Assembly: GCF_002803605.1 (NCBI RefSeq)
Contig: NZ_PHRG01000001.1
Location: forward strand, 62,001-126,000
From: Acinetobacter pseudolwoffii
Lineage (GTDB): Bacteria; Pseudomonadota; Gammaproteobacteria; Pseudomonadales; Moraxellaceae
DNA length: 64,000 bases
Reading direction: 5' to 3'
Shown: positions 1 to 15,764 of the stretch, one piece after another
Position numbering within the stretch: the first letter of the stretch is position 1
How the letters are laid out: each line of letters starts with the position of its first letter
Notes under the pieces: model-generated
What the model was told of the DNA's origin: nothing
What the model saw: the letters and a program-made list of their open reading frames with translations, nothing else
The model's database searches: none
Translations under genes and position numbers: made by a program

Positions 1-203
1 TTTTATATACCGGCGCTACCATCACACGAAATGGCAATCGATTTTTACAGTATCTGCAAGACCTGATGCAGCAGCATCAAAATATTCACTGGTCTTATGA
101 GGAAATTGATCCGGATATTTTTGGTGAAGAATTAGAGCAACCTGCTTATCAGCATGTGGAAAGAATTGCTCTGGCTCTGATTAAGATTGAAGTATGCGAT
201 TGA
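1..203 (+). CDS. 3' end of an unidentified protein gene (partial)
   Basis: An open frame enters from the left edge (codons in phase with position 3) and stops with TGA at 201-203, giving the last 66 residues of a protein. The fragment begins LYTGATITRNGNRF and ends ALIKIEVCD. It is fairly acidic and has no cysteine cluster or membrane segment. I do not recognise the family from this C-terminus alone. A rho-independent hairpin about 100 bases downstream supports a transcription unit ending here. Confidence 0.6.
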   Translation, partial: LYTGATITRNGNRFLQYLQDLMQQHQNIHWSYEEIDPDIFGEELEQPAYQHVERIALALIKIEVCD

Positions 204-13752: not shown

Positions 13753-13828
13753 GTCCCTATCGTCTAGAGGCCTAGGACATCGCCCTTTCACGGCGGTAAC
13801 CGGGGTTCGAATCCCCGTAGGGACGCCA
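13753..13828 (+). tRNA. gltT: tRNA-Glu (UUC), copy 3
   Basis: A 76-nt copy identical to the other tRNA-Glu genes and the first of three in tandem behind one promoter. The spacer to copy 4 is 24 bases. Confidence 0.98.
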
Positions 13829-13852
13829 ATTTTCAGAAGTACATTTTATTAA

Positions 13853-13928
13853 GTCCCTATCGTCTAGAGGCCTAGGACATCGCCCTTTCACGGCGGTAAC
13901 CGGGGTTCGAATCCCCGTAGGGACGCCA
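13853..13928 (+). tRNA. gltT: tRNA-Glu (UUC), copy 4
   Basis: A 76-nt copy identical to the others and second of the tandem triplet. It has no promoter of its own, so it is probably cut from the same precursor as copies 3 and 5. Confidence 0.98.
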
Positions 13929-13974
13929 TTACTTCAAGCTAAAAGTAAAGGTTTTAAAATTTATCTTCTGTACT

Positions 13975-14050
13975 GTCCCTATCGTCTAGAGGCCTAGGAC
14001 ATCGCCCTTTCACGGCGGTAACCGGGGTTCGAATCCCCGTAGGGACGCCA
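13975..14050 (+). tRNA. gltT: tRNA-Glu (UUC), copy 5
   Basis: A 76-nt copy identical to the others and the last of the triplet. The spacer from copy 4 is 46 bases. A terminator follows 26 bases later. Confidence 0.98.
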
Positions 14051-14076: not shown

Positions 14077-14107
14077 AAAAGCCCGGGCATTGCGATTCGG
14101 GCTTTTC
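14077..14107 (+). terminator. Terminator of the tRNA-Glu triplet
   Basis: The stem AAAAGCCCG/CGGGCTTTT has a 12-base loop and comes after the last tRNA. Confidence 0.8.
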
Positions 14108-14342: not shown

Positions 14343-15764
14343 ATGTTCGTCAGCACAGAGTTAAGTTTGCCTTTATCGCCAAATAATAATCATAATTATC
14401 AATTTAAAAGCTTTAAGGATTGGGTCGACTTTTTTCAAGATACTGAAATCTCGACGAATACCAAAACCGAACAAGCTGAATCCTATTTGAGCGATCTGAT
14501 TAAAAACCTCAATATAGAGCCATTCGGATGGCTGGATCAACCGTTACAGGTTGAACAGCATCTTTTAGAACAACATCATCAAATTTGTGCCAAGTTTCAG
14601 GCTTATCTGGGACGGCGTAAACAACATCAGGCCCGGGAGTATTTCCCAACGGTTTCACATGCTTTCGAATTTCTGTCCAAGGTTGCACCGGTTAAACTGG
14701 TCGATGGTTCTTGGTTATATTCCACCGTACATAACTGCAATCAACCCGAGCTGAAAGATTTGATCTATATCTATCTGGAAGAACTGGGTCTGGGACATCC
14801 ACGTGCCAATCATGTCACCATGTATCAGCACCTGTTAAGTCACTATGAGCTGAACAGTTATGCCGAACAACTGGATGCCAGTTATTATGAGCAGGCCGCG
14901 GTACAGTTAGCACTGGCTTATGCGCCGGCCAAATACTTGCCTCTGGTGATTGGTTTTAATCTCGGCTATGAACAGTTGCCGCTGCATCTGCTCATTACCA
15001 ATTACGAATTGGCTGAACTCGGGATTGATCCCCATTATTTCAATGTGCATATTACGATTGATAATGCCCACAATGGCCATGCACAAAAATCCCTGCAAGC
15101 CTTTATCCAGCATTATGAGAATACGGAAGATCCAGAGACCTATCTTGATTTGATCAAGCAAGGCTATCTGCTCAATGACGTCGGTAAAAGTTCTTCCCAG
15201 ATTGTGAAAGAGCTAGATATTGAGCGCATGGCCTTAAAAGTATTCCAGAACAAGGCACTGATTGGCCAATATATTCATAACCAGAAATGTCAGTTTAGTG
15301 GCAAGACTATCAATGACTGGTTATCAGATCCGGCACAAATTTTCAAGTTCCTGAATGTACTGATTGAGAAAGGCTGGATTATTAAAGATGCTCCTGTTGA
15401 ACAGAGCCGTTTCTGGAAAATGATTGATCATCCTGAAGGTAAAATGTTTGGTGTGTTTAATGCGACTGAAAAACAGATCATTAAAGACTGGATTCAGGGG
15501 GCAACTTTAGCGACTCGGCTGTCTTCACGCAGCGCAGCGCCGTCTCAGGCGAAAGTTGAACCTGCTTTAAGCCGTATGGATCAACAACGTTTAAATCAGT
15601 TAAAAAATCGCTTTATGCGCTGTGAAGGTGCGGAACAGAAAATTGACTTGCTGATTCCCTATACTTCACCGCATATGCATCATACTGAAGTGGGTTTATG
15701 GGCCACTCGTCAACTGGGACAGTTATTATTTCCTTTCCAGACCCAGGCGATGCATTATTCTTAA
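14343..15764 (+). CDS. Iron-containing redox enzyme of the heme-oxygenase-like diiron (HDO) family
   Basis: A 473-residue cytoplasmic protein. The central alpha-helical part (about 90-260) fits the heme-oxygenase-like fold used by diiron oxidases and oxygenases such as UndA and SznF. Candidate metal ligands are Glu146/Glu147 and His157 in YLEELGLGHPRANH, Glu210 in NLGYEQLPLHL, and Asp240/His243/His246 in ITIDNAHNGHA. The C-terminal 200 residues are less conserved in my memory and may cap the site. The reaction and substrate are not known for this subgroup. AAGGATC precedes the ATG at 14343. It is a single-gene unit with a terminator after it; the neighbours give no pathway. Confidence 0.75.
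   Translation: MFVSTELSLPLSPNNNHNYQFKSFKDWVDFFQDTEISTNTKTEQAESYLSDLIKNLNIEPFGWLDQPLQVEQHLLEQHHQICAKFQAYLGRRKQHQAREYFPTVSHAFEFLSKVAPVKLVDGSWLYSTVHNCNQPELKDLIYIYLEELGLGHPRANHVTMYQHLLSHYELNSYAEQLDASYYEQAAVQLALAYAPAKYLPLVIGFNLGYEQLPLHLLITNYELAELGIDPHYFNVHITIDNAHNGHAQKSLQAFIQHYENTEDPETYLDLIKQGYLLNDVGKSSSQIVKELDIERMALKVFQNKALIGQYIHNQKCQFSGKTINDWLSDPAQIFKFLNVLIEKGWIIKDAPVEQSRFWKMIDHPEGKMFGVFNATEKQIIKDWIQGATLATRLSSRSAAPSQAKVEPALSRMDQQRLNQLKNRFMRCEGAEQKIDLLIPYTSPHMHHTEVGLWATRQLGQLLFPFQTQAMHYS

Follow-up and report, generated by a model that had tools for sequence, protein, structure and literature searches.

Heme-oxygenase-like dimetal oxygenases (HDOs) carry an E-H-E-H-(D/E)-H metal-ligand motif, and the spacing of its last three ligands varies across the superfamily (PMC11363339). 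According to a review, functional validation exists for no more than about a dozen HDOs (PMC13108848). The HDO N-oxygenase SznF of streptozotocin biosynthesis acts on methylarginine together with the arginine methyltransferase SznE, and chalkophomycin biosynthesis combines an SznF homologue with a heme guanidine N-oxygenase (PMC11705231).

In Acinetobacter baumannii, DtpC (ABUW_2437) was reported in June 2026 as a desiccation and oxidative-stress factor (PMC13232832). The dtpC gene shares a transcript with katE. A mutant in both genes shows O2-dependent death on drying with accumulation of H2O2, and its survival is restored by either gene alone. Protection by DtpC was abolished by each of the substitutions E143A, H153A and H232A, and DtpC gave no protection against added H2O2. 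As possible mechanisms its authors consider iron binding, ROS scavenging or a small molecule (PMC13232832).

A conserved HDO gene in Acinetobacter pseudolwoffii

We analysed a 64,000-nucleotide stretch of the A. pseudolwoffii genome (contig NZ_PHRG01000001.1, positions 62,001 to 126,000), referred to here as the window. The gene under study and its immediate surroundings comprise the following features.

14343..15764, + strand: DtpC-like HDO gene, 473 aa plus stop, ATG start (open reading frame, PF14518, orthologues, dN/dS)
14667..15134, + strand: PF14518 Haem_oxygenas_2 domain, residues 109-264; 86.4 bits vs. a cut-off of 28.9
15135..15761, + strand: C-terminal region, residues 265-473, conserved within the family
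13753..14050, + strand: three tRNA-Glu (ttc) genes in a row, upstream of the HDO gene; context
14077..14106, + strand: terminator-like hairpin between the tRNA-Glu genes and the HDO gene; context

The product had been assigned to the HDO superfamily by a sequence-only reading of the same DNA, and this assignment was borne out by the PF14518 score over residues 109-264. PF14518 was the only Pfam match in the 473-aa protein up to E = 1, with none for the C-terminal region, where residues such as K304, H312, W326, W358, H446 and G451 are conserved in the family. No NCBIfam model and no PHROGs entry matched the HDO, and among viral contigs 37 stretches fitted the search pattern, none of which codes for a relative. 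Seven orthologous loci (A. lwoffii, A. pecorum and related records) share 89-90% identity with the protein across residues 1-473, and dN/dS values of 0.052, 0.060 and 0.061 were obtained in three comparisons, indicating that the protein is functional and constrained. At the level of sequence comparison, the seven orthologous loci together with the low dN/dS exclude a chance open reading frame at 14343-15764.

Directly downstream of the HDO gene, on the opposite strand, lies an OYE-family gene. The OYE and peptide-ABC neighbours are shared by the window and eight further loci of its clade (L073-L080); since all nine come from one genus, we treated this recurrence as inherited gene order, and a pathway uniting the HDO with these genes was set aside. 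Terminator-like hairpin sites were no different in number from those in shuffled sequence.

Candidate metal ligands

The codons of the residues considered as ligands are as follows.

14781..14783, + strand: E147, aligning with SznF E215 and DtpC E143
14811..14813, + strand: H157, aligning with SznF H225 and DtpC H153
14970..14972, + strand: E210, invariant in 28 rows; candidate bridging Glu
15048..15050, + strand: H236, aligning with SznF H311 and DtpC H232
15060..15062, + strand: D240, aligning with SznF D315
15069..15071, + strand: H243, His in 10 of 28 homologues; probably no family ligand
15078..15080, + strand: H246, invariant in 28 rows; likely sixth ligand

In all 28 homologues aligned, which extend down to 36% identity, D121, E146, E147, H157, E210, H236, D240, N241, G245 and H246 are invariant. 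As candidates, E147, H157, E210, H236, D240 and H246 fit the E-H-E-H-(D/E)-H motif of the superfamily. The ligand set proposed earlier thus held for Glu146/147, His157, Glu210, Asp240 and His246, but it had missed the invariant His236 and had included His243, which is not conserved. Residue 243 is His in 10 rows (nine of the window's clade and L005) and one of D, E, G, S and A in the remaining 18, which makes His243 an improbable ligand for the family as a whole; it was rejected in that role. Given this variability and the invariance of H246, the latter is the likelier sixth ligand, in the pattern H-x3-D-x5-H. SznF H318 falls opposite residue 243 in the profile alignment, in which the SznF match itself is non-significant. 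The invariance of D121 and E146 bears, at the sequence level only, on a 3H/4C set with a seventh carboxylate.

AlphaFold2 modelling with eight nearly identical sequences gave a mean pLDDT of 34.4 and a pTM of 0.22; the seven-helix heme-oxygenase fold is therefore assigned from Pfam and from the published model of DtpC, which is reported to match SznF (PMC13232832).

Relationship to DtpC

DtpC and the window HDO belong to the same length class and are 46% identical over 438 residues. The three residues whose substitution abolished protection, E143, H153 and H232, align with E147, H157 and H236 of the window HDO (A. baumannii copy, 469-aa start). Trees were built from 41 and 40 rows, of which the second leaves out two long-branch rows, L084b and L052, both present in the first. 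The Acinetobacter rows formed one clade (100/100), which holds the window's clade (100/99) and a second clade with A. baumannii (100/100 and 100/99); as two further rows are of uncertain placement, we do not call the two clades sisters. G150 and G151 group with A. baumannii DtpC. Taken together, the gene at 14343-15764 is, on sequence grounds, almost certainly the lwoffii-type counterpart of dtpC and encodes a DtpC-type HDO. It had been stated earlier that the Acinetobacter subgroup has no assigned reaction; this still stands, but a physiological role has since been published with DtpC (PMC13232832).

A catalase-like frame follows the A. baumannii DtpC copy examined, and katE adjoins the HDO in nine Acinetobacter loci, all of the second (A. 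baumannii) clade's kind. The window HDO, in contrast to DtpC with its katE operon, has no adjacent katE; the best katE match in its genome is located elsewhere (G000:C1:264456-266558). Since a katE operon is not a catalytic feature, its absence lowers the case for shared regulation and not that for kinship.

DtpC-like genes were also seen on eleven Acinetobacter plasmid records (plasmid hits H26-H36). Two of these plasmids were viewed (L149, L162); catalase, DUF421 and trehalose-6-phosphate synthase genes lie nearby, with the phosphatase gene otsB in one, which looks as if desiccation genes travel on plasmids. Broken HDO copies, matching in separate pieces, occur at G210:C7:2676708-2678521 and G239:C3:629887-631247.

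A HemK-like methyltransferase accompanies the HDO

Comparison of neighbouring genes revealed that a methyltransferase of approximately 315 aa adjoins the HDO in distant relatives. Its gene in the window's genome reaches into the window at the left edge.

1..203, + strand: end of a HemK-like NPPY methyltransferase gene (323 aa), stop codon included; the whole gene spans G000:C1:61232-62203 and starts outside the window

The methyltransferase matches PF05175 and, far below their cut-offs, the HemK/PrmC NCBIfam models; within its NPP(Y/F) motif, N207-P208-P209 are invariant in 15 aligned members. The match in the window's genome (C1:61232-62191, E 1.2e-133) is situated about 14 kb upstream of the HDO. 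The view that the HDO has no pathway neighbours here is correct for the adjacent genes only; the methyltransferase, found with the family elsewhere, is cut by the window's left edge.

The distribution of the two genes was compared in two samples. Of 149 Acinetobacter genomes, 69 carried the HDO (broken copies in G210 and G239 included), 34 gave a strong methyltransferase match (E 3.6e-76 or stronger; the rest were dropped) and 33 had the two together (p 1e-12, relatedness ignored). Among 299 Proteobacterial genomes, a full-length HDO was found in 12, the methyltransferase in 13 and both in 10 (p 1e-14, relatedness ignored); the 12 are what remains of 15 phylum hits after removal of G383, G410 and G528, whose matches (E 8.8e-10 to 4.1e-7) lie in ~740-aa frames of another type. 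G470 and G481 have the HDO without the methyltransferase. In eight of the ten genomes with both (G020, G061, G094, G465, G511, G560, G572 and G556) the methyltransferase is the next gene on the same strand, and the stop-to-stop frames of the two genes overlap or are 4 bases apart. The same adjacency was seen in G029 and G090 of the order sample. A PF14518 gene of any kind occurs in 111 of the 299 genomes and in 12 of the 13 that carry the methyltransferase (p 4e-5, relatedness ignored), the sole exception being G429.

We also assembled 38 distinct methyltransferase loci of at least 7 kb, dropping loci under 7,000 bases as well as L142, a duplicate of L068. An HDO lies within 2.6 kb in 24 of them, a number that gives no unbiased rate, since the set mixes loci fetched for the HDO with loci chosen for lacking it. 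Position and co-occurrence together suggest that the methyltransferase is probably a functional partner of the DtpC-type HDO. At G152:C1:1881208-1882963 the methyltransferase gene is broken and matches in separate pieces.

At the same time, no strong methyltransferase match was obtained in 36 of the 69 HDO-bearing Acinetobacter genomes, G150 and G151 included; the HDO therefore cannot generally depend on the methyltransferase. That about half of these genomes lack it would agree with the main rival explanation, a direct sink, in which the dimetal site would itself use up H2O2, superoxide or O2, or tie up iron, and would have no dedicated organic substrate. The nine Acinetobacter loci with katE next to DtpC-type genes point in the same direction, as do the reports that DtpC lowers H2O2 in dried cells, that a chelator helps dtpC mutants, and that iron binding and ROS scavenging are among the possibilities named by the DtpC authors (PMC13232832). 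Yet added H2O2 is not countered by DtpC (PMC13232832), characterised HDOs are described as using organic substrates or their own tyrosine (PMC13108848), and a sink would leave the adjacent methyltransferase unexplained. We consider the direct sink somewhat unlikely.

The methyltransferase beside a second HDO type and on plasmids

A search of 289 genomes of the class of G429 found the methyltransferase in five. In four of these (G827, G798, G705 and G815), and also in G567, a different, shorter PF14518 protein overlaps the methyltransferase or lies within 2 kb of it. This second type, HDO2 (L125, L138-L141, L145, L146, L150), resembles the family of the window HDO in having PF14518, the E-x9-H and H-x3-D patterns and, as a neighbour, the same methyltransferase family. 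Unlike the window HDO, it has the pattern HxxxDxxH, with His at the position of residue 243 and none at that of 246, and a length of approximately 300-350 aa (copies scanned with Pfam) vs. 473 aa. Three of these genomes (G827, G798 and G815) have a PurD-like ATP-grasp gene close to the pair, and in two of the three (G827 and G798) a SET-domain gene is nearby as well.

Of 22 plasmid records that carry the methyltransferase, 10 were viewed. An HDO adjoins it on five, from Legionella sainthelensi, Komagataeibacter nataicola, Sphingobium yanoikuyae, Variovorax and Sphingomonas daechungensis, the HDO of the last being in two pieces. On the other five no HDO was found in the 6-7 kb viewed on each side of the methyltransferase; in four of these an amino-acid symporter gene overlaps the methyltransferase. 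Sphingobium plasmids L152, L153, L154 and L156 show this arrangement, the symporter being of the amino-acid/proton type.

These pairings bear on the explanation that the genes for the HDO, the methyltransferase and catalase simply sit in common accessory stress islands, without any joint action. It would account for the katE, CinA-like and SDR genes around katE-type loci, the Mn-catalase and SDR-like genes near the methyltransferase in G429, LigD and Ku near the Legionella module, and the methyltransferase that adjoins katE in G233, a genome without the HDO. The direct same-strand adjacency in ten DtpC-type loci, however, and the pairing of the same methyltransferase with a second HDO type elsewhere argue against mere co-residence, which we regard as very unlikely; a functional partnership is the reading followed below.

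PF14518 was also seen in larger proteins. The ~740-aa frames of G410 (L061), G383 (L053/L070) and G528 (L055/L071) look like another biosynthetic family; a carbamoyltransferase gene lies next to the PF14518 gene in G410. In L158 (G521), L159 (G093) and L160 (G484), PF14518 domains lie in open frames of 677-742 aa, whose beginnings resemble, by eye, AMP-forming ligases.

Arginine-related neighbours

Cyanophycin genes were observed beside the HDO or the HDO-methyltransferase pair in 3 of 47 loci scanned, some of which overlap. In G568, a DtpC-type HDO gene immediately precedes a cyanophycin synthetase gene of the same strand; a second cyanophycin synthetase, a cyanophycinase and a peptidase are encoded nearby, and the methyltransferase lies far from the HDO. 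In G567, cphA and cphB adjoin the HDO2-methyltransferase pair, and the Sphingobium yanoikuyae plasmid has the order cphA, isoaspartyl peptidase, cyanophycinase, methyltransferase, HDO, symporter. At these three loci the synthetases and cyanophycinases scored above the equivalog cut-offs, and the peptidases did not. The window contains no cyanophycin genes, and among the DtpC-type loci scanned they were found in G568 only.

Two further kinds of neighbour were seen. The methyltransferase of Legionella sainthelensi carries a fused dimethylargininase/arginine-deiminase-like domain, and its gene adjoins that of the HDO; the domain scored above two Pfam cut-offs and far below all NCBIfam equivalog cut-offs. 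In G429 (L123:8020-10893), three genes follow one another on the same strand: a GntA-like gene, the HemK-like methyltransferase gene and an EgtD-like gene. The first scored 236 bits (cut-off 145) with the GntA model, whose name describes a heme-dependent N-hydroxylase, and the third scored 307 bits (cut-off 291) with the EgtD model. Most DtpC-type loci scanned have no arginine-related gene. From these neighbourhoods we tentatively suggest that the HDO may act on a guanidine.

The HDO and methyltransferase could also form one pathway with another substrate, such as a peptide or a compound derived from glutamine or histidine, in which case the arginine neighbours would be incidental. HemK/PrmC relatives methylate glutamine amides, according to the names of the NCBIfam models; EgtD, whose match follows the methyltransferase in G429, is a histidine methyltransferase; and the pair has PurD-like ATP-grasp genes close by in three genomes (G827, G798 and G815). 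Against this, three kinds of arginine-related neighbour recur across unrelated bacteria, and we judge a substrate of another class to be quite unlikely.

Proposed function

Our preferred reading is that of a partnership on a guanidine-type compound. The HDO would be a dimetal, probably diiron, O2-activating enzyme serving survival in stationary phase and on desiccation. It would N-oxygenate a small nitrogen compound, and the HemK-like methyltransferase, where present, would modify the same compound. The likeliest substrate would be an arginine-derived guanidine (arginine, methylarginine or beta-Asp-Arg), handled in the manner of SznE/SznF, and the product, e.g., an N-hydroxyguanidine, might act as a protectant or peroxide sink. 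As a whole, the proposal of a DtpC counterpart with guanidine-type N-oxygenation and the methyltransferase in the same route is plausible yet tentative. A broader version we hold to be unlikely as it stands: that the DtpC-type HDO, HDO2 and one HemK-like methyltransferase family constitute a widespread, so far unrecognised stress module methylating and N-oxygenating arginine-derived guanidines, fed by cyanophycin in some bacteria, whose small antioxidant or nitric-oxide-releasing product supports the peroxide survival of dried or resting cells.

What was already known is a close relative, DtpC, with a physiological role; the methyltransferase partner and the substrate lead are new. Neither the HDO-methyltransferase partnership nor the guanidine lead was found in the literature searched; the word 'methyltransferase' is absent from the DtpC paper (PMC13232832), and passages of PMC10206079 mention neither an HDO nor this methyltransferase. 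The publication on DtpC presents it as a desiccation factor of a hospital pathogen and gives no mechanism; a recurrent partner and a candidate substrate class open the way to a two-enzyme assay. If true, the proposal would bring primary stress physiology into a superfamily known, from its characterised members, mostly for specialised metabolism.

Comparison with known systems

The best PDB match of the family profile was 9pfw, an entry related to PbrRohS (E 0.0093), over 46 residues around E147 and H157, followed over ~45 residues around the same two positions by 9pfx (PbrRohS; E 0.22). The 9pfw and PbrRohS chains in the PDB are 306 aa long, and their matches to the HDO family are short and weak.

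With respect to DtpC, the window HDO sits in another branch of the Acinetobacter clade, and its genome has the methyltransferase, whereas the A. baumannii-like genomes G150 and G151 do not.

With respect to SznF, the similarity to the HDO family profile is non-significant (E 3.7-4.8), although the E-x9-H and H-x3-D patterns align. No SznF-type C-terminal cupin domain is recognised in the window HDO, since its C-terminal region has no Pfam match up to E = 1, and the position of SznF H318 (residue 243) is not conserved in its family. SznF with SznE and the DtpC-type HDO with its neighbour are both cases of an HDO paired with a methyltransferase; SznE is an arginine methyltransferase, whereas the methyltransferase described here is HemK-like by its NCBIfam matches.
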